From Caenorhabditis elegans (lineage: Eukaryota > Nematoda > Chromadorea > Rhabditida > Rhabditidae), in NCBI RefSeq assembly GCF_000002985.6, contig NC_003279.8, positions 12,090,001 through 12,154,000 of the forward strand: a stretch of 64,000 nucleotides of DNA, in the 5' to 3' direction. Shown here one piece after another: positions 1,660-26,290 of this stretch. Both the position numbers and the translations under genes were made by a program. Every line of letters begins with the position of its first letter. Within the stretch, counting starts at the first letter, position 1. The notes under the pieces are model-generated. The model saw only the letters and a program-made list of their open reading frames with translations. It searched no databases and had not been told where the DNA came from.

Positions 1660-4480
1660 TCAACGATCTAAATATTGCAGAACAACATCTCGAAATTGAG
1701 CAGCAGATTCCTCGTCTCTTTTGACATCCCAATCAGGGTTTTCATCGGTTCTCGTGAAAGAAAAACAGTCTCCATCATTAATAACATTATCTTTAACCAA
1801 ATCAAGAAAATAAAGCGCATTATCTTCTCCTTCCGAAATTTTCCATGGTGGTGCTGGACCAAATCGACCTGGAATTTTCCTACACCTGGCAGCCATAGAC
1901 GGAATTCTGTCTCGTTTGAGCTCTTCAACCTGCAAAAATAAATTCAATTTGAAATTCATTTTTAGACAATATCATACTATGTCTTACCTTGTATAAAGAG
2001 TATGGAGGGTAATTATTTGTTGTCTGGGTTGAATATTGTCCAGATCGGGAGCCAATAATCAATACTGGGGCATTTCCAAATACAGATTGCCAGTAGAACT
2101 TACAGCTCTTCTCCTTCCAGAAGTACTCGTTCAGTCCTTGACTCATAATTTTTAGCTCATAATGCTTCCGGTCAACTGAAATATGTCAGATGGAATTATT
2201 GGAAAACGAAGTAAATTTGAAATTTTTGGAAATTCTACTAGTTTTTCAGTAATTTTTACTGATGTTTCTTTGAAGTATTAACGAAGTATAGGCAAGTTTT
2301 TTTGTCGACAAATTCGACAAATCGGCAAATTGCAGATTTTCCAAAAATTGTGATATTCGGCACATTGCCGATGTTGAAACATTCAAAAGATGCGTACAAT
2401 TTTGCCGATTAAAATTAAAATTCTGAAATTCCAAAATTTTCGCTAGTTGCCGTTTTTCCGGCAAACTTGACAAGACAATTTGCTTGTTTGCCGATTTGCC
2501 CATTTACCGAAAATTTTCAATTCCGACAGTTTGTCGGTTTGCCGATTTGCCGGAAAGTTTCAATTTCGACCATTTGCCGGTTTGTCGATTTGTCGAAAAT
2601 TTCGATTAATGTTGAAATTCTCAAATTTCCAAAAATGTACGAAACAATTTGCCGAAAATTTTTGGCAATTGCCGTTTTTCCGCTAAACTTGCCAAGTCGG
2701 CAATTTGACGATTTGTCGATTTGCCGATTTTCCGGAAATTTTCAATTCCGGCACAATTGCCGGTTTGTCGATACGTCGGAAATTTCGATTAAAGTTGTGA
2801 TTTTGAAATTTCCAAAAAAAAGTGCAAAACCACAGTTACCGAAAATATTTGGCAATTGCCGTTTTTCCGACAAACTCGGCAAATTGGCTATTCGCTGGTT
2901 TGCCTATTTGTCGAAAATTTTCAATTCCTGCACAATTGCCGATTTGCCGATTTGCCGGTCGTTTTCAATTCCGGCAATTTGCCGATTCGCCAGAAAAATC
3001 GTTTGCTGCCCAGGGCCCCCTGTGAGCGCCAAATCAACTCACCTTCATTATCAATTGCATCAATTTGACCAGAATACAGCACACGGTAAAATTGCGTGTT
3101 TCCACGTGGAATCTCCGCTTTGAACACCGCTTTTCTAACCGTATCATCTGTCTCCAATTGCTCATCATTTCGAGTTCTTGTACAAAAATGCTCAAAAGCT
3201 CCTCCAAAATTCTTCGTATCTTGATATCGCACTTCGCCCGACTTAAACGAGAAAATTGTTCCTTTCAAATGAATTGCGTGAATTGTGAATGGTTTGTTAC
3301 CGGTAAGTGCGGTGAGAATCTGCTTATTGGTTACAAAATCCGGCTGTGCATCTTCCAGACATTTTGTTTGACTGATATAGTCCAGAAAAGACACCATATT
3401 ATTTTCTCCTTGTCCAGAATCCGGCACCTCAATGTTTAAATTGAAAAAGTCTTCTCTTAATGGTTTCAGGCACTCTCGGTTAAGGATTTTGGGGAGAAGA
3501 CCTGGAGTGACCCGCCTGAAAAAAAAATATTATGTGCCATTTATTAAAGGTACTACAGAGGTGTGGGCCACATTTTTTACACATTTTTTGCACAATTTTT
3601 ACACAATTTTTACACATTTTTTGCACATTTTTTGCACATTTTTTACACATTTTTTACAAATTTTTTACACAATTTTTACACATTTTTTACACAATTTTTA
3701 CACATTTTTTGCACATTTTTTGCACATTTTTTACACATTTTTTGAACATTTTTCGCACATTTTTTTGCACATTTTTTGCACAATTTTTGCACATTTTTTA
3801 CACATTTTTTGCACATTTTTCGCACATTTTTTTGCACATTTTTTGCACATGTTTTGCACAATTTTTGCACATTTTTTACACAATTTTTGCACATTTTTTA
3901 CACAATTTTTACACTTTTTTTGCACATTTTTTACAAATTTTTCGCACATTTTTTGCACATTTTTTACACAATTTTTACACATTTTTTGCACATTTTTTGC
4001 ACATTTTTTGCACATTTTTTGCACATTTTTTACAAATTTTTCGCACATTTTTTGCACATTTTTAACACTTTTTTTGAACATTTTTTGCACATTTTTTACA
4101 AATTTTTCGCACATTTTTTGCACATTTTTTACACTTTTTTTGAACATTTTTCGCACTTTTTTTGCACAATTTTTGCACTTTTTTTACACATTTTTTCACA
4201 TTTTTCGCACATTTTTTTGCACAATTTTTCGCACACTTTTTTGCACATTTTTTGCACATTTTTTGCACAATTTTTGCAGAATTTTAGCACAATCTTAGCA
4301 CATTTTTTGCACATTTTCTGCCACGAAATAAAACAATTCCCACAGTTTTTGATTTTATTTTTAATGATATTTGGTTATTTCAGCATTTTACAAAGAGTAT
4401 TTTACGAAGTAATTAATAGTTACTTACATATCTCCATCCCGATGATAGTAACCAATTGTGGTAACTCTAATACAATCCAT
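1660..4480 (-). CDS. DXO/RAI1 (Dom3Z) family protein, copy 1
   Basis: Predicted 327 aa from exons 4480-4428, 3515-3043, 2175-1988 and 1929-1660; all junctions are GT/AG and in phase. The protein starts MDCIRVTTIGYYHRDGD, and the YYHRD block recurs in most paralogues in this window. DXO/RAI1 enzymes remove incomplete or non-canonical 5' caps and degrade RNA 5' to 3' using divalent metal. The family motifs are visible: GGAFE (G-x-x-x-E), SGQIDAID at the E-x-D position, YELKI (E-x-K) and the FYWQSVFG..LIIGSR block. At E-x-D the expected Glu is Gln, so cleavage activity is doubtful. The usual animal protein is about 350-400 aa, so length is normal. Intron 1 (about 0.9 kb) and intron 2 (about 0.87 kb) consist almost wholly of minisatellite. 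The start was chosen because the first exon matches those of the paralogues. Confidence 0.85.
2280..3000. repeat. TTTGCCG minisatellite in intron 2 of DXO copy 1
   Basis: Degenerate TTTGCCG/TTTGTCGA units, same family as 415-1545, interspersed with GCCGAAAATTTTTGGCAATT phrases. It lies between the exon ending at 3043 and the exon beginning at 2175 on the minus strand, so it is transcribed as intron. Confidence 0.85.
3565..4325. repeat. 11-bp tandem repeat (CATTTTTTGCA)n in intron 1 of DXO copy 1
   Basis: About 760 bp of an 11-bp unit with TTTTTTGCACA or TTTTTTACACA variants. Because 11 is not a multiple of 3, the array stays open in several frames on both strands and gives spurious long frames, such as HFLHIFCTFFA on the plus strand and KMCKKCAKNVQ on the minus strand. 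A second array of the same unit lies at 39.29-39.79 kb. Confidence 0.95.
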
Positions 4481-5803
4481 TGTCACATCGGTTGATGGAA
4501 AAGCAAGCGACTGAACTTGCAGATATTAGTAGAAATCGAAGACTTTCACCGGTTGAAATAATTGCTAGATAAGGCAGGAACTGGCAAATCTTAATAGTTT
4601 TTAAATTAATTAGATTTTTTGACGGTTCTATACATGCACATTGCTACTTTAAAGAAGTATAATTATAGCAAAAAGAACTCACAAAAACAAGAGAACCAAG
4701 AAGACGGGTGTCCCAGCCTGCCGATGAAATCTCATAGAATGTGTCCCCACGTGCTCTCCACACCAACTGATGTCGGCAGATGGCAATGATTGAGAGGGGG
4801 CACTCGATAAACCGAGAGCAATTTCACAACTTCAAGCAAAAATATATTGATTTCAAAAAAGTCTACATTAAATAGATATTTCACATTATCTCAGGGGTTT
4901 TTAAAAATGGTTTTCTTTCAAATTTGAATTCAGATACTCATGTGCTCAGTTCAGTTTTTGCTCTTGACAATTAAAAGTCCCAGCCACTGAGCGTCTCTTT
5001 GTCTATGTCTCTCCTTGCGGCGGGACCTCTAAGAGAAGGAGTCATAGTAGGTTGAGGAGAGCCACATGGCTGTAGCTTCTCTAAGTTCACATATATAATC
5101 ACAATAATCTTGACGTTTACCATATTCTACAACTCTACATAAATACTACATATTCACATCATAGACTACGTCCGGATTTATTACTGAACACTATGGCTCC
5201 CACAAGGTCGCCGCGCCGGCCTCACAGCGTCACTCACGTGCATTCAAATGTACAGTGCTGCGCGGGTTCCCGCACGTGTCGGTTGCTTCCGAATAACTAC
5301 CATTTCGCACTACGTTGTGCACACACCAAGCTGCGGAACCCCGAACTTGCCGTCCGCTCCAAAAAAAAAACGTGAGCATCCCGCAAAGCTTGGATGTGGA
5401 TCAGCACGAGGACTTATGTATACACGTGCATATTAAGCCAATTGTCTTGTAAGAAGGTAATTTTAATTTAAGAAAAGTCGATTCTGCCTCTGTATATTCT
5501 TTATTTCGGAACAAATTGAAATGAAATGTAAACAAAAAATATTTTTGGAATAAAAGTTTTCAAGGAAAAGTTTAAGTCCCAGGGGTTTTGGTTAAAAAAA
5601 ACTAACTCTAAAATTAAAAGATCTGACAGGTAACGAGCAATATATTGATTTCTTTGATTTGTGGTGGGTTGCGGTACGATCGCGGCGGGATATTAGACAA
5701 TTTATGTTTTTTTACCTGCTAAATCTATAAATTAAAAAAAATAGTTTTTTAGACCAAATTCCCCAGAACTGAAACTAAAAAATAAAAACCGGGAAATATA
5801 AGA
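4481..5803. other. Intergenic region between DXO copies 1 and 2
   Basis: No gene was recognised. It presumably holds the promoter of DXO copy 1 (start at 4480) and the 3' end region of copy 2. A GC-richer patch near 5195-5430 (with CGCGCCGGCC, GCGGGTTCCCGCACGTG and TGCGGAACCCCG) stands out from the AT-rich surroundings. Its short open frames show no family signature. Confidence 0.4.
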
Positions 5804-7939
5804 TTAACTGGCCAAATAGTGACGGACGACGTCACGGAACTCTGCGACAGATTCCTCATCTTCTTTCACAATCCAGTCAGGGTTTTCATCGGATCTGGTG
5901 AAAACGTAGCAGTCACCATTGTTCTTAACATATTCCTCAACCAAATCCAGGAAATAACAAACACTTTCTTCTCCTTCCAATGGTTTCCATTCAGGTGCTG
6001 GGTCCATTAGTACTTTCTTCAAACATTCCTCGGCGGCACTTTCTGGAATTTGATTCTGTTCGAGTGTTTCAACCTGAAAAAGTTGAAATTATTTTAAATT
6101 ATAGCTCATCAATTAATACTGTATGACCGATTTTGAAATTAGGTTTTGAAGGTGGAGTAGAGCCAATACAAATTTTGCTTCAAATGACAGAAAATAGACC
6201 CTAAAAACCGATTATAACTGTAGATTATAACCGAATTAAATTTTTTTTTCAAATAAGTGACATCATTTTTTATATTTTTGCGTTTTTTTGGCTAAATTTT
6301 TTGGTTTTTCTTGCTGTTTCTTTCTGTATTTGATTTACAACTATGTTTGTCAAACTTTCAAACAATTTTCCGAAAAAAAAAATATATATCTATTAAATAG
6401 TCGATGTTTAAGCCAACTTTGAAATTTCCGCCAAGTTCTTTCAGGTTATCATGTTAAATTTAAAGAAAAGTATCTAAAAATAACGAACAGAGTTTTAAAT
6501 TAAATACATACAGAAGAAAAAAAGCAAGAAAACAGAAAAATTTAATCGGGGGAATTCAAATTTAACTCGGACGTTTCTTTGATTTTTGAAAAATGAGAAA
6601 AATCATAAAAAATTCAGAAATTTTTTTAAAATTATTAAACAGTTATATTCGGTCGTTGGGATCTAGTTTCTGTCATTTACACAAAATTGACTCTACTCCA
6701 CCTTTCAGGTGTCTACACCATTTTCATACTGAGTACTTGAAAGTGGTCACCATATATTCCAAGCTACGTAGTTCGCTCCAAAAATCAATTTTCCATATGC
6801 AAAATCACCTGATAAACGGAGAATGGAGGCCATTCTTTAGGCCATGTGGTTTTGGGGTCATTTGGACATTTTCCAGTTCTGGAGCCAATAATCAAAACGT
6901 CAGCTTTTCCAAAAACAGCTTGCCAGTAAAACATACAGCTTTTCGTTTTCCAGAAGTGCTCAGTTAATCCTCCACTTAGTACTTTCAGCTCATAATGCAT
7001 ACGATTGACTGAAAACAAGTATTATTCAATATATTCAAAACTAGAACTAAAGTAAGCTAATAATTTACCTTCATTGTCTACCGCGTCAATTTGTCCGGAA
7101 TACAACACACTGTGAACCCCCTTTCCACGTGGAATCTCCGCTATCATCACTGCTTTTCTCACCGGTTCATTTTCGTTTATTGGATCATCAGTTTTAGTGC
7201 AATGATGCTCAAAAGCTGCTCCAAAGTTTTGGTTAACAGATTCATCCTCATTAAACTTCAGCAGATAAGTTGTTCCATTCCATCTAAAAAGATGAATAGC
7301 AAGTGATCCAGTTCTAGTAAGCGCAACTAATAGTTGCTTATTCGTTACAAAACCAGGTTGTTCGTCTTGTAGGCAACTTGTTTGACTGATATAGTCCAGT
7401 AGAGACTCCATCATCAATTCTCCTTTTCCAGAATCTAAAACCTCGATGTTCATATTTGGAAATTTTTCCTTGTTTTGCATTGGTGTTAAGCATGCTAGGT
7501 TAAGATTTTTGGGTAGACGACCAGGTGTAGCTTTCCTGAAATTAACCACTTAAAAGTTGTTTTGTTTTAGCTTATTAACTTGAAACAGAAGTTGGCTAAA
7601 CTTTGGCAAAACTTGGATTCAGGCTGCACCAAAGTTTAACCCAAGTTTCACTCAATTCTTGCCAAACTTTGGCCCAAACTTTTCTTGTTTCTTTTCAAAC
7701 TTGGGTAGAAGTTTGGCAAGAGTTGGGTGAAACTTGTGTTTAACTTTGGTGCATCCTGAATCCAAGGTTTGCCAAAGTCTTGCCCAACTTTTGCCCAAGT
7801 TTAGCCAATTTCTGATCCAAGTTAATATTTGTTAGGCAAAAATTAGGCAAGAAGCTAGAGCCAAATGCCGAGAAACTTACATTTCACTATCCCGATGATA
7901 GTATCCGATAGTTTTCACTCGAATCTTAGTTAACTCCAT
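5804..7939 (-). CDS. DXO/RAI1 (Dom3Z) family protein, copy 2
   Basis: Predicted 331 aa from exons 7939-7881, 7535-7069, 7008-6809 and 6073-5804, all in phase. It has the same four-exon layout as copy 1 and is its closest neighbour in sequence: MELTKIRVKTIGYYHRD start, FVTNKQLL, GAAFEHHCTKT (G-x-x-x-E), LYSGQIDAVD, YELKVLSGGL and MFYWQAVFG..VLIIGSR. The E-x-D motif reads QID, so a catalytic metal-binding Glu is again Gln. The family acts on RNA 5' ends (decapping, pyrophosphohydrolase and exonuclease activities). Intron 3 carries an inverted-repeat transposon-like element and intron 1 a fold-back sequence. The gene lies about 0.8 kb downstream of the RdRP 3' end on the same strand. Confidence 0.87.
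6146..6707. mobile_element. Inverted-repeat (MITE-like) element in intron 3 of DXO copy 2
   Basis: The left end GAAGGTGGAGTAGAGCCA (about 6146) is matched in inverted orientation by TGACTCTACTCCACCTTTC (about 6689-6707). The interior is AT-rich with no transposase. It belongs with the element at 18667-19093, which has the same AAGGTGGA ends. Confidence 0.7.
7580..7835. repeat. Fold-back sequence in intron 1 of DXO copy 2
   Basis: Imperfect palindrome of about 250 bp centred near 7700. GGATTCAGGCTGCACCAAAG on the left pairs with CTTTGGTGCATCCTGAATCC on the right, and many AACTTTGGC/GCCAAAGTT blocks lie between. The intronic transcript should form a long imperfect hairpin. Confidence 0.7.
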
Positions 7940-8715: not shown

Positions 8716-11700
8716 TCAAAGATCGTCTTTCATAATTTTAAGATAACAAAAATTAGCCATTTGTTGTGCCAAATCTTGTCCTTCCCAGTGATTTTTGATT
8801 GGACTCGTGACGGTTACGAGTTTTCTGAGCTGCTGAGTTGATTCAAATGTTCCCGAGGCAGAGACAATGTAGCGAACTGGAAAAAAAAATTCATTGAATA
8901 AGGAATTTTTAAATTTCAAACCTGTAGAGTTTGACGTCTTCTTGTTTTTGTCTTGCCGACGCAAGTTCAATTGAGAGACTTTTGATTTTTCTGTTAGTTT
9001 TTTGATCAGCATATCCATATTTGCTTTTTCTGAAAAAAAAATCCACAAAAGCCTAGAAACACATCCAGGGGCCTATTCTAGAAAGTCTTGTAGGAGTCCA
9101 CGGGCTTATAAAAGTGATAGCTGGGCTATAAAAGCGTATAAAAGCCTAGAGGGCCTATAGAAGTCGAAGAGAGCTTATAAAAGGCCGGGGGTCAAGAGGA
9201 GCCTCTTGAATTTCAAGAGGCCTAAGAATACCGAAGGGCCTATAGATGACAAGGAAGCCTACTGAAGCCCAGGGGAGTCTATACATATAGGCCCACAGAA
9301 GCCCATAGAAGTCCAGGAAGGGAAAGTAATCCATTCGGGAGCCTATAGAGGCCTAGATCAGCCTCTGGACACCAGATGGCCTATACAGAAGTCCAGATGA
9401 GACTACAAAAATCCAGAAGGCCCACATACCTGGTAACTCAATCACAAATGGCTCACACTCTCGGAGTCTTGTCTCATGTGTGGTTGTCGGATCAGTTGAT
9501 ATTGGAAGCTCTTCGAATCGTAGATTGAACATAATATTATAGTATGTCTTTAGAGCCGGCTCATGGAATACCATCCACTCGCCACTCATGAAGACGGACG
9601 AAAAACCAAGTGGGCGGAAGGAGATGGACCGCATTGTTCGGAACTTTCGACTTCCCATGAGTTGGAAGAACTTGAACATCTGAAAATATAACTGTCTTGA
9701 TTTAGAATTTGTTTTTAAAAAATTAATATCTTCTGGACACATATGTAGGTCGGCCAGAGTTTGATAAATTAATAGAATCTACGACTTTAAACCAGTCTTG
9801 CAAAGTAGAACTCTCATTCAAATTCAGTTTTGTGATCTTACCATGTCCGACCGCTGATGCCTAGTAAGCGGAATATCTGGCTCTAAAGTTCCATTTTTCT
9901 TTCTTCTCCGATACTCTTCCACATCAAGTTTCCCAAAGAATTGTTCCGCATTCCCGTCAGCCGATGCTAGCTGTCCAGTTGAAAACATGATGAACATGAG
10001 GAGAAAGTGATAAATACTCATTGATCTTCCTTCAAATAATTCCAATGCTTCTCCCCATCGCATCAGCACAAACATCACCGAATCCAATCCAGGTATCATG
10101 TAAATGTATCTTTGCAGAATGAAAACTGCTTTTTTCGATTCCTTGCCGGTGATTAAATTGTCTAAATTCCTGCGGAATTTCTCGAAATCATCGACGTGAT
10201 CATTTATGTATCGTGCTCTGTGATGCTCTAGATAAGTGTACATGGGATTTGCTCCGCCAATGTTCATTTCTACATTTTCCAAAACTTTAGTTTCTTTGAT
10301 CTTGGCTATGACATCATATGCAATCCAGGCGAATGAAAGCTTCCGAGGTTCACGAGTGGATTTGGCGCACTCTATAAAAATACAGTTATTGTTTGAGTAA
10401 GTGTATGTCCCGCCAAAGCCAAAGCCTAAGCCTAAGCGTGAGCCTAAACCTATCACTGTGCCTAAACCTAATCCTGAGCCTAAACCCAATCCCATAACTT
10501 ACCATAACAAGCCCGATACCAAGCCACGGCTTTCTTTCTAATCTCCTCATTCGGATTCTCACAACGGAAATTAAAGAAGTTGCTCTCATTGTAAGCATCC
10601 GGCAAGAGTGTACAAACTTCTTGGAATCCGCCAAATTGCTGGAAAAAAACAGTAAAGGTGTATACTTAGACCGATTTTTTTACCTGGAAGAAAATAGTTC
10701 TAAATTTGGACACTAAAGCTGTCATTTTCGTCTCAATCATTCGATTAGTGTTGTAGAATGACATATCGTCTTGATCCGAGTCCGAAATTCGATTTCTCAT
10801 TTCAATAATGCATCCTGACATGATTTCACCTTCAGACTGGATACCGTATGTATCCATTGTGGACTGAAAATTATTATAGTTAGTCTATCCCGTCTTACTG
10901 TAGTAACCCTACAAGATGCTAGGAAATCACCAATGTAGGATTATTGTAGTAAACAATTTTCTACAGTAGTCCTGTAACAGTACCTCTGCCAGCTCGAAAT
11001 CTGAAGAAAGGTACTGTAGGACTACAGTAGAGCTCTAGAAAAAACCAGATAGCTTGAAGAGACCCTACTGAATCATTTGTTTCCTAGAACTGGTGTTCAC
11101 TGAAACTACAGTAATCCACAGCTGCTATATGGAGCAGCTAAGTATCCTAAGCTGCCGAAGTCGAGCCTTTTCGTTCCAAGACCCACTAACCTTCAACTGC
11201 CCATTGTAACTGGCCAGCTGCTTCTTTGCGTCTTCCATATACTCCTCAAAACCATCGACACGAATACTCTCGTCAACTTCAATCTTATACTGCTCCGACT
11301 TTTCTTCAGAGATCTTCATGGCATTATCAATTCCTTGAAACTCTCGGAACAGTTTTCCACATAGTCTTGGACTGACATACTTTGGCATATGATCGCTTCC
11401 CACGTGATAGTCAGGTACTCTCTCGGCTCGTTCCGGTGGGATCATCTCACCGGTGGCGTCATCTAAAAGTTTAGAGATAAGTTTGACGAAAAACAGCTTG
11501 TTTTTTATACCACCACTTACCAGTCTTCCATGTTGTTTGCAGCTCATCTGGGGGTTTTCCAGACTTTGAGAAATCAACGGCCTGACAGCTTTTCTTAGCC
11601 AAATTCATGCATACTCTTGAAGTCAATCCATACTGATCAGAGTTGTGGAGATGGCTGTTCGCGATCAACCCTACCAAATCTTTTTTGAGATACTCGACAT

Positions 11701-14700
11701 AGACATCTCGCATCAAGTCGTCCTGAATTAAATTTTGAAGTTAGTCATGCTCATCAAATAAATCAAAAATTACAATGTCTTCCCACTCGTATGTCTGTAA
11801 GTTTTTCTCCACCGCAAAGTCAAACGCCTCCTCATTCCTCTCGAGTAGCAATTTCTGATCCCAAATGACAGAATACTCATCTCCATCCAAATCCGATCCT
11901 GCCATTTCATCTGGATGAGGCCTTGGACCGTGCTGTGGGAATACAACTACATCACACAAGTGATGAAGTTCTGGAATGTCGACGGCTTCAAAGATCCTAA
12001 CATCCCCGGGAACTATGCCCGGGTTTTTAGTGAGCAGCACGGTTCCAGTAACAATCTCACTACCGAGAACTTTCCGATTGGAATCTCGAGGTGGGAGTAT
12101 GTTCCTGTGATTTTTCGTGTATTGAACAAAGACCTGTCCGTATTGTAGAATCCCAGTCTCGTCGACAACGCCAAGCATCGATCGACCAAGCTCGCTGGGT
12201 ATTTGGATTTGCTCTTTGAACAGTTGTTTGGCTGAAAACATAATTAACATGATGCATGAAACTTCTGTTTCAAAAACTTGAAAAACTCACTGATAGCAAA
12301 CTTGATTGACGCCTTGACAAGGGATCTGAAGAATGGTTCATTGGACAATGTGAATCCCCAAATTGTTCTCAAGTAATCAATATCGATTCTACGGGGAAAC
12401 TCCTGAAATAGATTATCTACTTGGAAGGTACTTGGAAGGCTAACGTAGGCAGGCAACATACCTTCAGCTTGTTCCTAAAACATGCCTCATCCGTCATCTG
12501 CTTGGCAAATGAAAGTGTCTGCAAATCCATCAATTCCTCGATCCTACTCGTTATTCTCCGATGACATTCTAATGACTGCATTTCGGAAACTTGATCGAGA
12601 ATGTTTATTAATGGTTTGTTGAGAGCAACCAGCACCGGCGACGAGTACTTTACCATTTCCACTTGGTCTCCGAGAATTTGCTTGCCCTCGAATTTTATTT
12701 GACTTGGACGGAACACACACTTGATATTCTTGGACAATGAGATTCCATGCTTCTCCTGCCAATTACGTTCTTTGTCTAAAAGCGGGTCAATGGCAAGAAC
12801 ACCCTTCATTCCACGATATCGAAACTAGAATCATTAAATTATTGTAGGCGTGCATGCCAAAACCACTTACCTGAAAACAGCTTGGAACGGATCTTCCGAA
12901 TGACATCAATCGAGATACTTCTTGAGCAAACTCGTAGCTCATCATTCCGACTCCGTCAGAAAATGTGTACTCGCTTCCATTTGATGATCTTCCGCCCGAT
13001 AGATCGTGTGTCAAACAATAGTTGTCTGGTCCTAGGCTGACACCAGTAAGCTGAAAGTGATAGGCCCTTTAACTATTAAAGCTTCCAACACTTACCCTGC
13101 TCTGAGTAAAGCATTGACCTAATCTTGCCATCAACTTCGGAATATTTTCGATTTGCAAAAAATTACCCAATTGATTTCGAACTGAATCAATGTTCGGTTT
13201 GAACTTTGAATTCATTTTGCATGCGTTTTTATGTCGATTATCTGTATTTTTAACCATAAAGTATGCACCATTATCTCTCATTTGTGAGCTCGAGCATCCT
13301 AAGAACCCAAAATCCCGATTTGCCACTACAATTCCGTGCTCCAAGTATTTCTTGACACAAATGTCAAGTAGTTCGCCAGTTGCATTCGCTCGCATTTTTC
13401 TATTATTATCGTCTCTAAAAGTAACTCTGAGCACATGAGTTCCATCTCTATCGAAGTTTCTTAGTACTCGGTTCCCCATAATCATCTCGGGTGGAGTATA
13501 AATCACTCTTGTCGGTGTGAAGATCACTTTTCGGACTCGTTGATATCCTTCTTCGATCTCTTGTTCTGACATACCATTCGTCAGCTGCATTACTAGACGT
13601 TTTTGGCAAATTTTATGAAAGCACTGAAAAATGGTTTGTGGGTCTCCGAATGGGTAAAAGAGACCTAAGCTAAACACCCCACCTTCCAAATTGATCCAAT
13701 CCGCTTTCTGCCATCAATTAAATAAATCAGATCTTCAAGTGCAGCTTCACAAAGCTTATCATTTTCCAGGTAGTAGTGAGTAATTAGACCCAAGAACTGC
13801 CCCCAGCATATTTCATCTGTAAGTACTTGATCTTTGACGATAGCTCCCCGTGACAATAGGCATTCAATTAGGTATGTGATTGCAAATTGTCTTCCGTCAT
13901 TCTCATTAATTGATTGGGCGTCTATTATTTTCATCTTTGAAGGGAAACACTGAAAGCATTGCTACTTTGCCATTTGTTAAGATTAGATTCATTTGTTAGC
14001 CGATTCACTCACGTTATATATGAAGCATTCGAATGCATATGATTTCGAGCTGGTCGGATATCTTAAATATGGATAGACCTTGCCTATCGGAACATCGACT
14101 TTTGGAAAATTTGCAAATTCGATTTGGACTCCAGTTCGAGAGCGTAGACGAGAAAGTACACGATATAGCGTATCATTCGAGTCTCCCTAAAAGTTAAACT
14201 TCAGTAAGATCAAATTTTAGCAAACCCTTAATGCTAACATGTAGTCCAAGCTTCTGCTGATTTTTGGTTAAAAGTTACCTAGACCCCATTGGTCAAGTTT
14301 TACATAAATACCCTTTAATTAAACTTTCAACAAAATAAAATTTTCTAACTTTCAAAAGACATTTGTCAATCTGCAAAGCTAGTGTTTCGTCCAATTTTGT
14401 AACATGGATTTTTTGACATTCAAAAAATGACATTCAACTTACCGAATTCCCATCCGATTCCTGTTTTTGCAGTTCAATTGTGAAGAATGGACTATCAGAG
14501 ATGGCTGACTCATGTGGGGAACCGTACTCCTTCGTCCCAATGCAACTGTATCGATTTGTACGTTTATAGAAAGGCTTTTGAGTCGATGGCTAAAAATAGA
14601 ATCATTAATTGTGTAGCAGTAAAAGTTGTACCTTATCATCATCTACAGATCCTTGTCTAATGAGTGGTGGGCAATTGAGTTCGAAATGTATACGTGTCTT

Positions 14701-15977
14701 GTTCATGTCAACTTGAGGATCGACGATAATTCGACGAATCGTGTCCTTTCGGATCTAAAATAGGTGACAAGATTAATGCAGGGGTACTGTAGGGTTACTG
14801 TAGAGGATTACTCACAATAGTTTGATAGTTGATTCTCTTCCTCTTCAAACATTGAAACGTCACAGTTATCATATCAGCCCTATCGAATTCAAATTCGGCA
14901 ACTATCTTGTTCAGAAGCTCATTCGCATCTGCCGATATTTTTTTGCCAGAAAATGAAATTTGCCAATGACTGATATACGTGTATCCTTGAATATTTCCAA
15001 AATACATTGCTGCCAATGGGACCTCTATATAGCAATCTAGTGTTTTTGCCCAAAAATCCGAACCATGAAGAACGATGTAAGGCCGTGGCCAATTTGCATT
15101 CTGAAAACTTGAGTTTTTGGAGGTTTTCTTTGCAAAAAAAATTAGAATTTAATCACTTACCAAACTGAATAAATAGGCCCTCATCGCATCTATTATAGTT
15201 TGATCAAATTTAGCACTGGCAACGTCATAGTTCACTTCAAAGAAGGAATCACAGTCTTGTTCCTCAACAATTTCCATCTCATGACGACTCTTGATATCGA
15301 TTTTGTGATGTTGAAGAATCTAAAATGAGAAAAATTTGTTTTGTCTCTCAACTAAAAATCTCTCCTGTTTTTGAAGGCTTCTAAACTTACAAGCCCATAG
15401 GCGGAAAATCCCAAATTTAAATTTTCCAAACATTTTCATGTGAAATTCAAATTTTTAAGGAAAAACTGCCGGAAAATTGGACATTTTATGCGCTCTGTGG
15501 TGTACATCAAACTTTGATAAAAAATGTTGGCGCAAAATTAAAATTCGATGTCTTCAGGAAAAAAAATTCAAGAAATTAAAATGTTAATTTTCAACGAAAG
15601 TTTTTCGGTTATTTCAAATATTAAATGCTTTAGAAAAAAAATTTTAAGGTTAAAATTCAGTTGAAAAAAATCATTAGAAATTTTTCAACTTAACATTTTT
15701 GAAACGGAGTTGAAAACTAGTTCAGGAGAGTTTAGGAAATTTTTAATAGAATCGAAAAAAAAATCTTTAAAAGTCATGAATACTTCTAAAAAATATATGA
15801 AATTTAAAAAATTGGAATATGTTATTCAAACCTCTCAAACTTCAGTAGTAACTATTTAAGCCCGTGACTTACCGCAGGAACACTATTTAACATCATTTCG
15901 ATACCATATTCGATCCTATCTATGGAATCGTCAAATTCCGGAAACTCAAGCCTGATAGACCCATTTTGCCCCGACAT
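8716..15977 (-). CDS. rrf-2: Cellular RNA-dependent RNA polymerase (EGO-1/RRF family)
   Basis: Predicted 1,579 aa from 20 in-phase exons: 15977-15873, 15319-15161, 15100-14816, 14754-14632, 14589-14443, 14186-14013, 13949-13683, 13623-13096, 13050-12871, 12824-12462, 12402-12291, 12231-11774, 11722-11521, 11462-11191, 10863-10684, 10638-10503, 10371-9842, 9679-9430, 9029-8922, 8876-8716. Cellular RdRPs copy target transcripts into secondary siRNAs for Argonautes. Signature blocks in order are [58 protein letters not shown] and the catalytic [11 protein letters not shown] with Asp at about 928, 930 and 932. All three catalytic Asp are present and there is no stop or frameshift, so the gene looks functional. 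The start [17 protein letters not shown] follows a TTTGCAG acceptor at 15988, which suggests trans-splicing. The rrf-2 symbol rests on family and on recollection of a neighbouring DXO cluster. Another RRF paralogue is possible. Confidence 0.93.
9060..9425. repeat. Low-complexity GCCTATAGAAG-type repeat in RdRP intron 18
   Basis: Degenerate runs of GGCCTATAGAAG, GCCTATAAAAG and AAGCCCATAGAAG fill the intron between the RdRP exons ending at 9430 and starting at 9029. It is transcribed but not coding. Confidence 0.65.
10400..10497. repeat. Telomere-like GCCTAA repeats in RdRP intron 16
   Basis: About 100 bp of degenerate GCCTAA units (AAGCCTAAGCCTAAGCGTGAG, read as short blocks), the complement of the nematode telomere repeat TTAGGC, sit in the intron between exons ending at 10503 and starting at 10371. 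The resulting open frame, rich in LGLG and RLRLR, is not part of the protein. Confidence 0.75.
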
Positions 15978-15985
15978 AACGAAAG

Positions 15986-15990
15986 GCCTG
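15986..15990 (-). promoter_or_regulatory. Probable trans-splice acceptor for the RdRP mRNA
   Basis: On the minus strand TTTTGCAG precedes the start ATG by 10 bases, with no upstream exon in evidence. In Caenorhabditis such a site usually receives a spliced leader. The sequence alone does not say SL1 or SL2. Confidence 0.5.
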
Positions 15991-17063
15991 CAAAACGAGA
16001 AGTAATTTCACCGTTCAATTTTGTAGCCAAAATGTAAAAAAAAAAACAACACTTTTGACTCACTTTATTCAATTAGTGTAACGCGAACACGTGGTCGCTG
16101 GCTGTCCTTTTGCATAATTTTGAAGCAAAAGCGCCTCATTGAGAATTCACGTTGGCGCCAACTCTCGCTATCCATTGGGCGTGAGAGACGCAGATACTAC
16201 TTTTTTCTCTGGACGTGAAAAACGCAAAGAATAGCCGTTTTGCCGTCTGCGTCTCTTTTTTCACACGCTATTTTGGCTGTGGACAAGGAATTCTCCTCTT
16301 CCAGGATTTTCTAGGCCATTTTCTCACATTTCTCAAGTTTTCTCGTCCGCGAGAAAACGTGAATTTTAAGACAGCCAGCGAGCACGTGCGCGAACATAAA
16401 ATGAAAGAAAAACAACTGCTTGACAATTCGAAACAACCTCTGTTCTGAACAGCGGAGACGCAGACAGCTAAGAGACGCTAAGGATACGTTGTTATTACGA
16501 AATATCCGAATAAGAGTGAGCAAGGCGAGAATGTTCGCGAAGAAAAAAATTTAGGTATAAAAAATAATTGTGTTTTTACCGATAAAATTGATAAAAGAGG
16601 AAAAAATACGGACAAGAAGAATAATCCTCTTACAAATTTTTTGTTTGAAAATAAACTAAAATTTATCTAGTAACAAAATTTTTTCTGTAACGATATGAGT
16701 TAAAAATATATAATGTTATTCTTATAACTATTTGGGAACAATCTGAGATGTTTCCAATAAGAAAAACAACTATTTTAAAAAATATGAAATATTTAGACCA
16801 AAATTATTATATTACCAATCAAAAGATTTTTCATAAATTATTTATTTTTCTGAAACTTTGGCAAACTGTCAAAAATGTCTCAATTGACTAGTAAAACTTG
16901 TTGAAATACAATTACAACGTGGTCTCGGTGCTTTCTGAAATACTAAAAATCAACTGGCTACATATTATCTGAAAAATGCAAAAATTGAGAAAATACTTGC
17001 GACCGTATTTCTTTTTCAAAAAATGCAGATAAAAACTTCCTCCTTTTTTTTAGAAATCAACAT
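15991..17063. other. Intergenic region upstream of the RdRP
   Basis: No gene recognised. It has repeated GACGCAGA/GAGACGC phrases at 16.18-16.48 kb and AT-rich sequence beyond. It should contain the RdRP promoter and the 3' flank of DXO copy 3 (stop at 17064). Confidence 0.4.
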
Positions 17064-18418
17064 TTATTTTGGCATACTCTTAACAATTACTTTTCTGAAT
17101 TCCGCAACCGATTCCTCATCCCTCTCGATTATCCACCTGGATCTTTCACCATTTCGCGAGAGAACGAAGCAATCTCCATCAGAAATTGCTGTTTCCTTGA
17201 CCAATTGCAGGAATACACGAAGATGTCGTTCTCCAGCGGCAACTGACCAGATCTTGGGTGGGAACGGGCGGTCTCCCATTCGCTGAGCATGTTTCGCTGC
17301 TGCCGTTGAAGGAATCGAATCGCGTTCCAGTTTTTCAACCTAAAATTGAACGTTTGCAAAAATTAAAAAAAAAGGAACCTACTTTGTACAACGAGAATCC
17401 GGGAATATGTTTTGAAATCGACTGATACTCCTTCCCCGTTCTTGATCCAATAACCAGTGTTGGAACATTCGAGAAGAAGGCTTGCCAGTACATCCAGCAA
17501 CTTCTGAATTTCCACTTGTAATTGTCTAGTCCATTTACAAAGACTTTCAGCTCCACGTGCTCGCGACTTTCTGAAGATTCTTAATCAATTTATTTCTAAA
17601 AAAAAAGAATCTAAAAAACCTTACCCTCATCATAAATGGCATCCATCTCCCCGGAATACAAAACACTGTAAGGGTGCTCATTGCCACGTGGAATTGTTGC
17701 TTTGAAAACTGCCTTTCTGACCGTTCCATCACCACCGACCGGCTCCTCATCCGAAGTTTTCTTGAAGAAGTGTTCAAATTTGATGGCATAATTCAAAATA
17801 TCAGGTGTCAGATCATCGAATTCACTAGATTTCAACAAGAAAATCACGCCAGAGTATCGAAAAATTAAAAGTCGCTGAGCTTGCTCTTTGGATGAAAATC
17901 CAGTCGTTGCAATTGTGGTAATAGTGTGCCGGTTTGTTACAAAATCCGGTTTTTTCTTATTCGGCCAACCCATTTGATTCAAATAGCTCAGTACGGATTC
18001 CATATGCTTTTCTCCGCCTCCATTATCAGGAACTTTCAATTGAACATCTACATAAGGAAATGGCAGAGTTGGGTCCTCGAGATACTTTTTGTTCTCATTG
18101 AGAACTTTAGGAAGGAGATTCGGAGTGATGTTTCTGAAAATTGTGTTAACCTTAAAAATATATAAAATATTTTAAATTTCTTTTTAATCTTCAAAATTAA
18201 TCAAAGTACAAGCCTTTTGTTACTTTATCCATTTTTAAAAATTTTCACTAGAATAAAATAAATGTTAGATCGCAATCAATGGATAAGCTGACAAAGTTGA
18301 GCTTGCAGAAAACACGAAATGATATTACTTTTAAATTGAGAAAAAATTAAGACTCCGAAAAAACTCACAATTCCGAATCTCGATGATAATACCCTATAGT
18401 TTCAACTTGAATCGGCAT
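17064..18418 (-). CDS. DXO/RAI1 (Dom3Z) family protein, copy 3
   Basis: Predicted 340 aa from exons 18418-18369, 18133-17625, 17570-17383 and 17339-17064. The start MPIQVETIGYYHRDSE is the shared N-terminal block. Motifs: FVTNRHTI, AIKFEHFFKK (E of G-x-x-x-E retained, first Gly not obvious), LYSGEMDAI (E-x-D intact), VELKVFVNGL (E-x-K), and MYWQAFFS..LVIGSR. Unlike copies 1, 2 and 4, the metal-binding Glu of E-x-D is present, so it is one of two copies here likely to be catalytically competent. The C-terminal exon keeps the ERDEESVAEFRKV block near the end that copies 1 and 2 also carry. It lies about 1.1 kb upstream of the RdRP on the same strand. Confidence 0.87.
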
Positions 18419-19466: not shown

Positions 19467-22373
19467 TTAAGATGGAATACTTTCATGGACAAGCTTCGTG
19501 AACTCTTCAAGAAACGTGTTGCCCTTTATTCTTTTTCGTTTAATTTTTTTGATTTTCCATGCTTCTTCTTTATTTTCAAAATCAATTGTGCACGAATAGC
19601 AGCTTCCATTTTCAGTCGCCTCCGTTTCAACTTGTTCTAAGAACGTTTGTATTCTTTTTTTGCCGTCTTCTATATTCCACTTGACGTCTTTGTACTTAGG
19701 AATATCCTCTCGTTTGAGATGCCGAACCTGAAACTGATAGGCAATGAAAAATTACATGTTTCCAGTTGTTTCCCTTCGGAGTGCGCGAGAACATTTTGCA
19801 ACGTGTTTTTTTTAACTTGATCACTGTAATCTCGCTTTAGTTTTGTTTTTTCCCGAAAAATAGCAAATTTTGGAATTTGAAACAGTTTCAAGTTTATAAA
19901 AATTGATTTTACAAACATTTTGATGATCGAATCCCCTCCCTCTAATACAACTCACTCTGTATAGCGACAACTCTGGTAGGCCACGAAGATGATTGTCATT
20001 ATCAGCTTCTAGTGTCTTAGAAGAGTCATTATCAGCTTCTGGTGTCTTAGAAGAGTCATTATCAGCTTCTGGTGTCTTAGAAGAGTCATTATCAGCTTCT
20101 GGTGTCTTAGAAGAGTCATTATCAGCTTCTGGTGTCTTAGAAGAGTCATTATCAGCTTCTGGTGTCTTAGAAGAGTCATTATCAGCTTCTGGTGTCTTCG
20201 AAGAGTCATTATCAGCTTCTGGTGTCTTAGAAGATGACGAGCTTTTCGATTTCTTGCTTGATCCATGATTTGTGTCCTTATTTTCGGAAGATCTCTTTTT
20301 CCCGGCACTCTAAAGTATTGAAATTATTGACTGTATTGAATGTATAAAACAAGTTAAAGGAAGACTAACCGTTCGGACGATTTTCAACGTATAGACCCAA
20401 ATTCGCTCAAATGAACGAATTTTGTAATGAAACTTCTCGAAAATTAAAAAAAAATGTATGTCAGTTCAAAATTTTGAAAAACTTACACTGATTTTAGCTA
20501 AATCTTCGAATTTTGGTCACTTTTCGTGTCACATCTGCCCAAAGTTGACTTTTTTGGAATTATCATTATTCCATATTTTGGCAGTTTATCTCATTTAATT
20601 TCGTTGATTAATGTACATTTGAAGCCGATGGATAACCAACTTTGATGAGTTTTGGTCACCTATCGGCTTTAAATGTACCTTAATCGACGAAATTAAATGA
20701 GATAAACTACCAAAATATGCAATGAAAGTGGCCAAAATTCGAGGATAGTGCTAAAATAAGTGAATTTTTTACGAAATTTTTTTTTAATGTTTGAAAACTT
20801 TTTTGAGAATTTTCATTACAAAATTCGTTCATTTGAGCACATTTTAAGTCTATACGTTCAAAATCCTCCTTTAATTGCTAGTATGTCCTGGAAACTACAG
20901 AAAGACCAAAAACTTGCAACAGGGTGAATTAAAATTATTCGACTCTCTTGCGAGAAGCGTTGTGAGTTTTTAGAATTTTTAGCATAGTTAAATATGTTAC
21001 ACGCGGAGATTATCATTATCCGTTGTTAAAAATTGTCAGGTTTAAGAAGACCGAGAGCGCGACTCGGGCCTTCATAATTACGGGTAACCCTGTATTCTTG
21101 TAAATTTTTAAAAACAAATTGTAGTACACATTTAAATTTTCACTTTTTGTTGAAACGGAATTTTTTAAACGCATCTTGAATAAAATACATCCCTCACGTT
21201 TTGAAACTGAAACTTACAAATTTTGAAACGTATGATATATCATCCAATTCTTCTCTTTGTCTTTCTCTTGTCTTTGTCAATGTCTTTGGATCCTGGTCCT
21301 GTTTGCCAGTTCTTGAACCAACAATCAGAGTATTACAATTTCCAAACACTGATTGCCAGTAAAACCAGCAGGAACTATTTTCCAGATGATACTTTGTTAG
21401 CCCTCCATTGAGAACCTTCATCTCGTAGTGTTGACCTGTAAATATTTTATGAATAATATCGTGTTGGCAAGAATATAAATATACGTTTATCATCGATACC
21501 GTCAATCTGTGCCGAGTAGAGAATACTATATGACGAGTTATTTGAACCTTCTTGTGTTCTTGGAACATGCGCCTTCAATACTGCCTTCGTAACTGCATCA
21601 TTGGTAGGCAATGGTTCATTTGCTGTTTTGGTGCAATGATGTTCGAAGTTTACACCATAAATGAGTGATTTCCATGGTTCCATTTGATTGCCTTCTGATT
21701 CCTGACCTTTTTCTTTCGGAGTTTTCACTATAACCTGAACATCGTTCGTTTTGAAAACGATAAAATTTTCTACGCCGGTCGATGACGGAATTGCTCCTAT
21801 CACATTTCTATTCATAACAAAATTGGGTTTCGATTCGCCTGCCCACCCTTTTTGTTTGATATAAGCGAGCATGGATTCCATTTGCTTTTCTCCACCTTGG
21901 GTGTCTTTAACAGGGTTGTTCATGGAAGGTGTTGCATTCAATTTTCCCAAATACGTTTTGTTGAGAACTTTCGGGAGTTCGCCTATTTTGATTTCCCTGA
22001 AACAAAATTCAAATCATATGAATACAAAAATCAGCGTTGAATAATATGTAGCATTAAATATGTAAATAAATATCAAAATTATTCGCTTTCTCCTGAAAAG
22101 TTTAAATATTTAATTAAATGCGTTATATATTGATGGTGGAGTAATGAAATGTAGGTCTGAACTTTATTTGAATTTTTCCTGGATTTAATAATTCTACAGA
22201 GCCTGGATATAATTATTCTAAATACATAGTACATTGTACTTTGAAAGACCGAAGGTGAACTTCTTTGCAATGTGTTAGTGAATAACTTTTTTAACAACAA
22301 AAACTCACATTTTGGAATCCTTGTTTATTTTTGAATGATAATAATCTATCACAGTAATCTCAATGCCAGCCAT
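19467..22373 (-). CDS. DXO/RAI1 (Dom3Z) family protein, copy 4, with internal acidic repeat
   Basis: Predicted 469 aa from exons 22373-22309, 21996-21485, 21435-21218, 20309-19956 and 19727-19467. Core motifs: GVNFEHHCTKT, LYSAQIDGID (E-x-D reads QID), YEMKVLNGGL and WFYWQSVFG..LIVGSR. Where the paralogues have a short loop between IGSR and the SLYK/SLYR block, this one has an extra exon encoding a Lys/Ser-rich stretch followed by eight 10-residue SSKTPEADND units, ending in LPELSLYR. The insert is probably disordered and rich in phosphorylatable Ser/Thr. The remaining C-terminus is lysine-rich (WKIKKIKRKRIKG), unlike copies 1-3. The extra exon is phase 0 at both ends, so it could be skipped without a frameshift. 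The E-to-Q change makes catalysis doubtful. Confidence 0.83.
19994..20235 (-). repeat. Coding 30-bp tandem repeat, 8 units
   Basis: Eight nearly identical 30-bp units encode SSKTPEADND on the minus strand within DXO copy 4. The unit is a multiple of three and the frame is open throughout, so copy number can change without breaking the gene. Only single-base differences separate units, which points to recent expansion. Confidence 0.92.
20373..20875. mobile_element. Fold-back element in intron 3 of DXO copy 4
   Basis: A 500-bp near-palindrome. GATTTTCAACGTATAGAC at the left end pairs with GTCTATACGTTCAAAATC at the right, and ACATTTGAAGCCGATGG near the centre pairs with CTATCGGCTTTAAATGTAC (two mismatches). 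No coding capacity. It resembles a non-autonomous DNA element. Confidence 0.75.
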
Positions 22374-23038
22374 GATTCAAATTGATGTGCAAGAAAAAAT
22401 AAGTAACCGACGGTAATACAACCTAAAACTAGAAGGAAATGAGAATCGATTCCCTCCTAATGCAAAAATGTTACGATTATTTTCGAAACTGATGAGAAAA
22501 TGTATGAGGTTCTCTCTCTCTCTCTCTCTCTCTCGAGCAGACTACTTTTTGCACGTGACGTATGTGATTGTGAAATAGTGATGTGCATAATGTGATAAGG
22601 AGTAATAATTTTACTACTTTATTATGCAGCATGATTTATTCCATGGTGATTGAATTACATTCAGTAGTTTGAATATTGGCAGTCATATCCAGTAAAAAAA
22701 ACAATAAAATAGTGTTTCAAAACGGAGTTTTAAAAAAACTAAATTCCAACATTTCTGTTGAACTTTTGATTTTGCGCGACATTGATTCATAGAGAATGTT
22801 TAAGGATCTGTCGAGAGTGTATGAAAATTTTTCTGCTCAGGAATACAGTTACAATCTACACATTAAAAACGAACCTTTGCTTGGTTATACTGTTTAAAAA
22901 ACTTATTGAAATGTTTGTTAAGCAAAAAAAAATAAATCTGCAATTGTTCATAAGTTATGCGTTCTTTATTTTCCAAACTTTGCAACTGATATTGTATTGT
23001 TGTTGTAATAAACGCGATGCTTATTAAGTAATATCCTG
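22374..23038. other. Intergenic, with (TC)n at 22510-22534
   Basis: AT-rich sequence upstream of DXO copy 4 containing a clean TC dinucleotide tract. No gene recognised before the transporter remnant at 23039. Confidence 0.5.
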
Positions 23039-23596
23039 ATCTGCTCGATCCTCTCATTCCTATCCACGATCCTCACGCCAATCGCTACTCAATATGGCTT
23101 TTGGTTCTTCTGGGCGGCTCGCTTCTTCCAAGGACTTCCAACTGCAATTCTTGGAATCGTTGTCTCCGTGGTGACATGTCACTGGTCAACTCTCACTGAA
23201 AATGGAACATATGTATCTATTCTGGCAGCTCACTACCAAATTGCTCCACTGTTAACCATGCCTCTGTCAGCTTAGATGTGCAGTGTGGGAGGATGGAGTT
23301 CAGTTTATTATACTCAAAGAACTATTACAGCAATCCTGATTGTCTTGTTTGCTGTGTTCTACACTGACAAACCATCGGAGAGCAAATTTGTTTCAAAGGG
23401 AGAGCTGAAGGCAATTGAAGATGGGAAATCATTGGAAGAGAAGCATGTTGAGAAGAGTAAGACTCCATTCGTCGCAATTCACAAGGATCCAGCTGTCTGG
23501 GCGATTTGGATCACATCAGTTGGAGGAACGATCGGATTCTCCATTTTCTTGCAATACGGCCCAACTTATCTCAATAAAATAAGATTTCAATTTTAA
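23039..23596 (+). pseudogene. Major facilitator (SLC17/anion-transporter-like) gene fragment
   Basis: An uninterrupted frame reads ICSILSFLSTILTPIATQYG, then WAARFFQGLPTA, HWSTLTENGTYVSIL and QIAPLLTMPLSA. There is an in-frame TAG at 23273-23275, then MCSVGGWSSVYYTQ, FVAIHKDPAVWAIW and IFLQYGPTYLNKI. This is the central part of an SLC17-like MFS transporter (several membrane helices plus the cytosolic loop). Both ends are missing. The matching segment is intron-free, so it may be a large exon or a retrocopy. The only other strand-consistent features nearby are repeats. The stop and truncation make a functional protein unlikely. Confidence 0.85.
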
Positions 23597-23769
23597 TATG
23601 AAAATCGGCGGGAGCGAGAAAAAATCGAACCGGGCGCGTAGTGTGTGCGAAAGAAATGCGCTCGGCGCGCGAAAATTGTGCGACTAGATCGCGAGACAGT
23701 AGTCTAGTCGCGCCCCGCCCGCGTGCCAAGCGAGCCAAACTACCGAGAATTATGTACATAATTTTAAGT

Positions 23770-23935
23770 GGTGTCAAAGTGTCCCATTCCGGTTTGATCT
23801 ACATAGATCTACAAAAATCGCGGGAATTTAGGCTCAGACTTCCCAACTGACTTCGCATAGTTAAGAACGTGCTGACGTTATATTTTTTGGAGAAAAAATT
23901 GCCGCATTTTTTGTAGATCAAACCAATGCGTAGTT
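23770..23935. mobile_element. PAL-type palindromic element
   Basis: GGTGTCAAAGTGTCCCATTC then GGTTTGATCTACATAGATC at the left, and TTTTTTGTAGATCAAACC at the right. Same family as the elements near 8.4, 53.4, 54.7 and 60.0 kb. Just left of it (23.6-23.75 kb) is an unusual CG-rich stretch (GCGCTCGGCGCGCG and GTCGCGCCCCGCCCGCG). Confidence 0.75.
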
Positions 23936-24063
23936 TGTTGAGATATTTTTATTACCCATTGAAAAAAACAGATCATAGTCAAATAGATCACAAAAGGGGA
24001 AATTGTATAACAGTATGAAACAAAACATAAAACAACATGGTTATAGTGTCAAACAAAAAATAT

Positions 24064-26290
24064 TCAGTTTCTAGCCATATTCCTTTGGTCTTCGTGAAAA
24101 GCTTTTCGTTCTTCCCATGAAATAAACCGCTCGATATAAAATCCGTTGAACTCTGATGTCTTCATTTTGTGTACATTTCGTAAGCACCTTCTCTGTTGAT
24201 AAATACTATTCACCACAATTTGGAGATGTCTTGGTTGGCCAATGCAACGTACCGCTGCAACCTCGGGTCCGATTCCACTACCAAGGCGATCAACTATCTT
24301 CTTCGCCTTTGTCTCGTCACTCTCGGTGTTTTCAGAGAGATACTTCACGATGAGGGATCTCTCCCATTCCTCCCGTACAGGAAGATACGATATGTTCCCA
24401 TTTATATCCATCTTGCCCTTACTCTTCAAAATGTGCTCGACCACGTGTCGGAACGTTCCTGCCAACTTCTGATGGTCCTGTTCAATCTTCCACTGGCTTC
24501 CGTCATTTGTAATAACATAGCAGTCTCTGTCTTTTTTCACTGAGTTTTTGATCAAATTAAAGAATGACTGCAGTCGCTTCTGTCCATCCTCAATCGTCCA
24601 ATGGTCTTCAGTGCCTTCAAATCTCTTAGCAACTTCTTCAAGAATTTCTTCTCTGCTCCGGGTTTCGATCTAAAAAAAATAGATCAAAAATGAGAATAAA
24701 AACTTTTGAATGGAAAAAAGTTAGCTAGTGGACACATCACTTACATCGTATAGAACGTTAGTCGGCCAATCGAATTTCGCATCAGTTATCTCCAATAGAC
24801 TCGGATGATTTCTTGAACCAATGATCAGTGTCAAGACGTTCGAGAAGAATGACTGCCAAAACATCCATTGACTCCTCCGTTTCCAAACATGCTCAGTGAG
24901 TCCTCCCTCGAATAACTTCAACTCAACATGATTATTCCTGTCTGAAAACAAGTCTTGAGTTTAGCAAAAATTGTAGTTTTTTGGAGCAAACGCGTTTTAT
25001 CGGAGGTTGTGAACAAGGGGTGTGCGGCAAATTTGCCGAATTTGCCGAATTTACTGTTTGCCGAACTTGCCGATCATGGCAAATTTCAAAAAAGTAGATT
25101 TGCCGAATTAACCGAGCTCGGCAAATTCCAAAATTTTCCGCACACATCAAAAATTTGACAATACAATTTTGACCAAATCTATTGATTTCGTCCCCAAAAA
25201 TTTAGTAAAATGACACAAAACTGAGTTTTTTTAAAGCAGACACACTGCACGGAATTTATTCAGAAAACAGATGTGTGTTAAGAATTCAATAGTGTTGGTG
25301 CTCCTAAAAACATAAAAAATATGACATTTTTCGGAGTTTGACTATGAGGTCGGAGAACGGAGCACGGCAAATTTGCCGAATTTTCCGAATTTGCCAAAAA
25401 AATTTCCGACAAATATATTTTTATTCTCACTTTTCTTACTAAGTTTAGGCAATGTACGATTCTCCGTGAAACTTTTCTGATGATGTGAGCTCTAACATTT
25501 TTTAGTATGAGCAAGGCCTTACGCGAATGAGGCAAAAAATTTGACATTGATTAAAAAAACTACTCACCGTCAACCGCATCCAGTTCTCCTGTGTATAAAA
25601 CTGTGCAGAACGTGCCGTCTCCAAGTGGAACTTCCATCTTGAACACACCCTTATTCACGATCCCGTTCGCCATTGGCATCTCATCTTCTGTAGCTCTTGT
25701 AAGGATGTGCTCAAAGACAAATGAGCAATCAAATAATCGGTGTTTCTTGTTCTCCTTTGACAATTTTGCCAAATAATACACACCACCAACTCGGACAACA
25801 AGAATTTGAATATTTTCCTTTTGTTGAACAGATCCACTGCTTTCGGTAGGAGGAACAAATGAGGCGATTGTTGCTAGAAGATTCTTGTTTGTTACGAAAT
25901 CTGGCTTGTTACAATTGCCCTCGTATAAATCCTTCTGACGAATGAACTGAAGAAATGATTCCAAGTCGAACTCCCCGCCGCCGAGATCGTCGAATTCTCC
26001 GTCTAGACTCGGAAGTGTCTGATAAGGGCGATCAAAGTACGTACTGTTCTTGTTGAGCGTCTTGGGTCGTGAATCAGGAATAACGTTCCTGGAAACAGAA
26101 AAAAAGTTTTCTCGAAAAACAATTCAATATTTATTTTTTAAATCCCTTCCGATGAAAATATGAGATTTATTTTATGATTTAGCAATAAGCATATAAATAT
26201 CAAAACTACTCAACCTTAAAAAATAACTTACATTTCAGAATCTCGACTGTAATATGCAATGGTAGTAACTCTAATTTTTTGGGTCTCCAT
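24064..26290 (-). CDS. DXO/RAI1 (Dom3Z) family protein, copy 5, with C-terminal extension
   Basis: Predicted 460 aa from exons 26290-26232, 26088-25568, 24941-24745 and 24669-24064. N-terminus METQKIRVTTIAYYSRDSE. Motifs: CSFVFEHILTRA (E of G-x-x-x-E), LYTGELDAVDG (E-x-D intact), VELKLFEGGL (E-x-K) and WMFWQSFFS..LIIGSR. It retains the catalytic Glu and, with copy 3, is a likely active member. After the conserved region (up to QKLAGTFRHVVEHIL) there are about 110 further residues absent from the other copies, including KSKGKMDINGNISYLPV and RFISWEERKAFHED. I recognise no domain in this tail. Start and exon phases match the other copies. Confidence 0.86.

Follow-up and report, generated by a model that had tools for sequence, protein, structure and literature searches.

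Most animals, many nematodes among them, have one DXO gene, and in Caenorhabditis elegans eleven DXO paralogues have been counted, those on chromosome I being called two clusters (PMC13129544; here and below, statements on published work refer to the parts of each article that were available). Mao et al. (2020; PMC7735679) reported that, of ten C. elegans DXO homologues, six lie as tandem duplicates beside rrf-2, an RNA-dependent RNA polymerase (RdRP) gene whose name we take from that paper, and Correa et al. (2010; PMC2851571) described a six-copy family with members in close vicinity. EOL-1, a relative encoded on chromosome V, acts genetically in RNA surveillance and in RNA interference (RNAi) of the antiviral type (PMC7735679, PMC13129544) and is required for mitochondria-induced RNAi (PMC7735679). 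Here we analyse this same locus of six tandem DXO homologues beside rrf-2 in a 64,000-nucleotide window of chromosome I (NC_003279.8, 12,090,001-12,154,000), with the whole genome (100,286,401 bases in seven contigs) as the search space. The DXO/rrf-2 linkage is already published and, being in print, makes our finding of the locus a rediscovery. In the available text of the Mao and Correa papers, we found neither the placement of rrf-2 between the copies nor a change at the position of DXO E234.

We consider it probable that the locus is a tandem array of diverged DXO-like genes, at least partly intestinal and pathogen-responsive, that surrounds an RdRP similar to rrf-1, with no functional unit implied. 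Its new element, as far as our literature search went, is the replacement by Gln, in four of the six copies, of the Glu that corresponds to DXO E234.

Layout of the array and its family membership

Over 28.1 kb of the minus strand, the genes follow one another in the order Z, A, B, rrf-2, C, D, E, with rrf-2 between B and C, so that three DXO-like copies stand on each side. Unless marked as contig positions, coordinates are those of the window.

Contig 12,089,969-12,088,164 (L017:8164-9969), minus strand: DXO-like gene Z; spliced model; Pfam RAI1 27.1 bits; Gln at the DXO E234 position
1660..4480 (start to last codon 4480-1663), minus strand: DXO-like gene A; 4 exons, 327 amino acids; GQIDAID, with Gln at E234; RAI1 41.3 bits
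5804..7939 (start to last codon 7939-5807), minus strand: DXO-like gene B, taken as Y47H10A.5; 4 exons, 331 amino acids; GQIDAVD; below the Pfam cut-off
8716..15977, minus strand: RdRP gene rrf-2 (RRF-1/EGO-1 type); PF05183; 19-exon model and a likely first exon; DLDGD
17064..18418 (start to last codon 18418-17067), minus strand: DXO-like gene C; 4 exons, 340 amino acids; GEMDAI, with Glu kept; RAI1 52.0 bits
19467..22373 (start to last codon 22373-about 19470), minus strand: DXO-like gene D; 469 amino acids; AQIDGI, with Gln; below the Pfam cut-off
24064..26290 (start to last codon 26290-24067), minus strand: DXO-like gene E; 5 exons, 447 amino acids; GELDAV, with Glu kept; RAI1 45.0 bits

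The five copies inside the window were recovered by tblastn with the exons of one copy, and all have open spliced models; the sixth, Z, which begins 31 bp outside the left edge of the window and also has an open frame, was found by a genome search with protein B. A purpose-written spliced aligner gave the models of A, B, C, E and Z; the model of D was finished manually from the reading frames, its last two exons being joined in this way. An earlier note, made from the letters of this stretch, had described five DXO-like genes and an intact RRF-type RdRP on one strand; its strand, its count within the window and its coordinates hold.

On sequence comparison the DXO/RAI1 label is correct, though the likeness is thin and the copies are far diverged. 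The spliced proteins of Z, A, C and E, four of the six, exceed the cut-off of 26.8 bits for Pfam RAI1 (PF08652), with 27.1, 41.3, 52.0 and 45.0 bits, respectively, and B and D were assigned by homology, B being 58% identical to A and D 33-39% identical to the remaining copies. A joint profile of nine models, namely the six array copies, EOL-1, the gene at chrI:5.0 Mb that we take to be dom-3, and a gene that is presumably C37H5.14 from its place in the genome, matches human and mouse DXO chains at about 1e-23 in a PDB search. A PDB search with protein B alone yielded five matches within an E-value limit of 10, the best at 0.4, and none was to DXO. Likewise, the RAI1 model gave no match in the raw minus-strand frames scanned, and its exon-wise genome search detected one of the six copies, C.

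By the gene models, neighbouring coding regions lie 0.8-1.7 kb apart, a distance that exceeds usual operon spacing. The naive expectation for one of four RdRP loci to fall inside a 28-kb array is about 0.001, which is weak evidence because this pair of families was picked after being seen.

The position matching DXO E234

Residues matching DXO E192, D236, E253, K255 and Q280 are present in all six array copies. At the E234 position, Z, A, B and D (4/6) carry Gln and C and E (2/6) carry Glu; EOL-1 and dom-3 have Glu there as well, and C37H5.14 has Asp. In the profile alignment DXO motif III reads SGEVDC, with residue numbers counted from the motif IV Glu (E253). EOL-1 E197 has been equated with mammalian DXO E253, and in the chromosome V model V3 the motif IV Glu is residue 197 and a Cys is residue 162, the same positions as those given for EOL-1 (PMC13129544). 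At 26 alignment columns dom-3, EOL-1, C and E all have the same residue. Z, A, B and D keep that residue at 15 of these columns, including those of E192, D236, E253, K255 and Q280, and E234 is the single column of the 26 at which these four copies have one different residue in common.

This residue pattern suggests changed chemistry under constraint. Since the Gln at E234 is accompanied by retention of the five other residues, the Gln copies are probably not decayed genes but encode proteins with changed or weaker cutting, and because of this Gln we do not claim Z, A, B and D as ordinary DXO enzymes. The double change E234A D236A has been made as a mutant form of human DXO (PMC9458431). In a search of article text we met no published description of the Gln change, though the alignment in Figure S1 of Correa et al. 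(2010) may show it; the available text of PMC13129544 yielded no mention of 'motif III', 'E234' or 'glutamine'.

The two relatives elsewhere in the genome frame this comparison. EOL-1 shares the RAI1 family and the motif layout with the array; in contrast, it keeps EVD at motif III and is only 21-26% identical to the array copies. Similarly, dom-3 is a RAI1 family member with EVD and ELK motifs, but it is 23-26% identical to the array copies and is not linked to them.

rrf-2, the descent of the array and its regulation

The Pfam RdRP model PF05183 matches in all three minus frames at rrf-2, as do PH_met_RdRP, DUF7636, DUF7637 and DUF7752. A 19-exon spliced model (15319-8722) has no stops and one DLDGD, and a likely in-phase first exon lies at 15977-15873. 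A stop in an early model was a mis-spliced exon, not a lesion. With an RdRP domain bearing DxDGD, an open frame and an RRF-1-like architecture, rrf-2 belongs to the RRF-1/EGO-1 type. Its exons are collinear with those of the two neighbouring genes at chrI:7.65 Mb, which by position we take to be rrf-1 and ego-1; it shares their DLDGD and is about 66% identical to rrf-1 and about 53% to ego-1 (first models, with one mis-spliced stretch). Unlike them, it lies within the DXO-like array, about 4.4 Mb away, and is dispensable in published assays, both for the small interfering RNAs of Y47H10A.5 and for silencing by ingested or neuronal double-stranded RNA (dsRNA). PMC4323106 is divided on RRF-2, which is counted in one passage as an RdRP that produces 22G-RNAs and called dispensable in another.

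In a midpoint-rooted tree, the six array members stand apart from dom-3, EOL-1 and C37H5.14 with support 100/100, and Z, A and B form a sub-clade (99/99). The tree and the residue counts leave out the chromosome V models V1, V2 and V4 (stop in model), an incomplete copy of dom-3 on X and a degenerate chromosome II match. Array copies are 33-58% identical to one another overall; Z, A and B are mutually 56-58% identical, and share 43-47% with C and 35-39% with D and E. A genome-wide RdRP search found at least four places (13 matches, a lower bound), two of them the neighbours at chrI:7.65 Mb. That search, with its lower-bound counts, gave no RdRP match beside the other DXO-like loci, which argues that the RdRP was not part of the duplicated unit and led us to reject block duplication of the RdRP together with DXO. 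Within the first 30 kb of the window, open reading frames of at least 40 amino acids from the rrf-1/ego-1 minus frames match only 8719-15995. The six DXO/RAI1-like genes would thus stem from local tandem duplication, and rrf-2, an RRF-1-type RdRP, would have moved into the array or been trapped in it. Separately, two eol-1 paralogues lie in inverted order at L018:6260-7602 (plus strand) and 6038-4816 (minus strand), 99.87% identical over 1583 bp; by the models, the frame of both is seemingly interrupted after motif IV.

Gene B is followed by a microRNA target site.

5672..5694, minus strand: miR-243 target site, in the presumed 3' untranslated region of B, about 0.1 kb past the stop codon

This site has one mismatch to the miR-243 sequence, and 100 shuffles gave no match. 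The 21-base core is exact at B and at IV:4450839, with one further match at one mismatch on chromosome III (searched up to two mismatches). We take B to be Y47H10A.5 because the miR-243 site follows its stop codon, together with the published description of that gene as intestinal and silenced by miR-243 through RDE-1 and RRF-1 (PMC2851571, PMC12381656). Y47H10A.5 is also pUGylated by RDE-3, is predicted to bind RNA-silencing regulators, and is listed in a preprint as an intracellular-pathogen-response gene raised by viral RNA1 replication. Further, M01G12.9 responds to infection, and loss of CMTR-1 raises four of the other ten DXO paralogues (PMC13129544).

The 400 bp upstream of the seven genes (for rrf-2 counted from 15997, 20 bp off the ATG) were compared with 200 first-order random versions. 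Six 8-mers are common to at least four of the seven upstreams against 1.6 expected, AT-rich words that we judged uninformative, and one is common to five against 0.1 expected. TGATAA occurs upstream of five of the six DXO-like copies and is absent upstream of rrf-2, a count made with no control set.

As regards the microRNA itself, its locus (IV:4450832-4450883) shares 52 bp at 87% with III:5240414-5240509, and the chromosome III stretch has a further match at II:7815950-7815988; judged by such matches, miR-243 and its target site may have descended from a small repeat family. The idea that inverted duplication of Y47H10A.5 gave rise to mir-243 was not supported, since the homology spans only about 28 bp and the match to the other arm 25 bp. 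An Rfam scan of the target, mir-243 and chromosome III loci gave no match at the gathering score.

Two further features lie among the DXO-like genes.

19995..20234, minus strand: tandem repeat, 30 bp x 8 (98% matches), inside a coding exon of D; encodes the 10-amino-acid unit SSKTPEADND x8
23036..23581, plus strand: MFS transporter fragment (Pfam MFS_1); 97% identical to the chromosome II frame II:4750406-4750951; one in-frame TAG

The MFS fragment is a recent partial copy of the chromosome II frame. The earlier note saw only a transporter remnant on the opposite strand, and this holds in a plus-frame Pfam scan of 4500-34380, in which the fragment is the only match within 1660-26290 (positions 1-4499 of the plus strand lie outside the scan). 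The repeat of D matches the Pfam Spt5 CTD model at 28.5 bits (cut-off 25.4), probably via composition. The C-terminal tail of E, 118 amino acids (24067-24420), matched only itself in a genome search at E 0.1. Simple repeats occur within the first intron of A (3569-4321; 11-bp CACATTTTTTG x68) and between Z and A (443-1549; a 43-bp TTTGCCG-type unit). Farther along the plus strand lie a Srw chemoreceptor-type gene piece (32982-33560) and a tRNA-Met (52911-52982).

Explanations for the locus

To judge from inferred biochemistry and from EOL-1, the DXO-like proteins of the array would most likely act on RNA 5' ends and would serve an inducible RNA-surveillance and immune programme, at least partly intestinal, in which rrf-2 would need no partner among them. 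PIR-1 is the known enzyme for the 5' ends of RdRP products. The earlier note proposed instead a local toolkit, and in its fuller form RRF-2 and the DXO-like enzymes would be a functional module that makes RdRP products and then trims them or the 5' ends of their templates. We regard this as very unlikely. The close same-strand linkage of the genes and the place of rrf-2 among the copies would fit such a module, as would the acceptance of 5'-triphosphate RNA by DXO (PMC9458431) and the need for EOL-1 in mitochondria-induced RNAi. However, rrf-2 is dispensable in published tests, 0.8-1.7 kb separate the coding regions, the common upstream words are few and AT-rich, and four of the six carry Gln at the E234 position. 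Trimming of RdRP products by DXO finds little support, as 22G-RNAs bear a 5' triphosphate (PMC4323106), which argues against routine trimming. Apart from proximity the toolkit has no support, and most of the published tests of rrf-2 argue against it. What endures of the proposal is a role in RNA silencing or surveillance, plausible from the relative EOL-1; the coupling to rrf-2 is not supported. We attach scarcely any credence to an extension in which the array would be a sensor and brake of RNAi load: miR-243, RDE-1 and RRF-1 would keep Y47H10A.5 low, viral dsRNA occupying RDE-1 and RRF-1 would release it, the Gln proteins would hold RNA 5' ends without destroying them and in this way protect the templates or products of RdRPs from nucleases of the EOL-1 type, and rrf-2 would be kept near by selection.

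Glutamine can still bind metal via its carbonyl, which bears on a more tentative but quite possible reading, namely that the Gln copies are pseudoenzymes that would bind RNA 5' ends without cutting and would compete with or regulate EOL-1-type nucleases. Besides that chemistry, the intact residues matching D236, E253 and K255 count against it, as does the Asp of C37H5.14, which implies that the E234 site tolerates change; on the other side stand the shared Gln amid five kept motif residues and the use of E234A D236A as the mutant human DXO. This reading is a sharper form of our preferred one, and both may hold together. It is unlikely that the genes are neutral debris, left by tandem duplication on a chromosome arm and of little functional importance: simple repeats and a transporter fragment lie nearby, and work cited by PMC2851571 saw no phenotype on RNAi knock-down of family members, but six frames stay open at only 33-58% identity with active-site residues held, and knock-down of M01G12.9 lengthened adult life (PMC8357631). 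Several points weigh against the diverged, pathogen-responsive array that we prefer. B and D stay under the Pfam RAI1 cut-off. EOL-1, at its low identity, may be a poor functional guide. Midpoint rooting leaves the tree in effect unrooted, with three outside rows only, and the placement of C, D and E open, so that, with D unplaced, the E-to-Q change may have had one origin or two. The program also flagged joins between long branches, those of EOL-1 to the array and of dom-3 to C37H5.14, which may thus be false. Moreover, joint removal of rrf-1 and rrf-2 relocates NRDE-3 in risiRNA-producing animals, by which rrf-2 may not be idle.

For the biology of the family, the analysis connects a DXO-like gene that RNAi directly controls with the six-copy family to which it belongs, grouped around an RdRP whose function is unclear. 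The four natural DXO-like proteins that lack one metal-site acid and retain the others offer a ready test of the role of E234, and the Gln copies could show whether DXO relatives serve as 5'-end readers.

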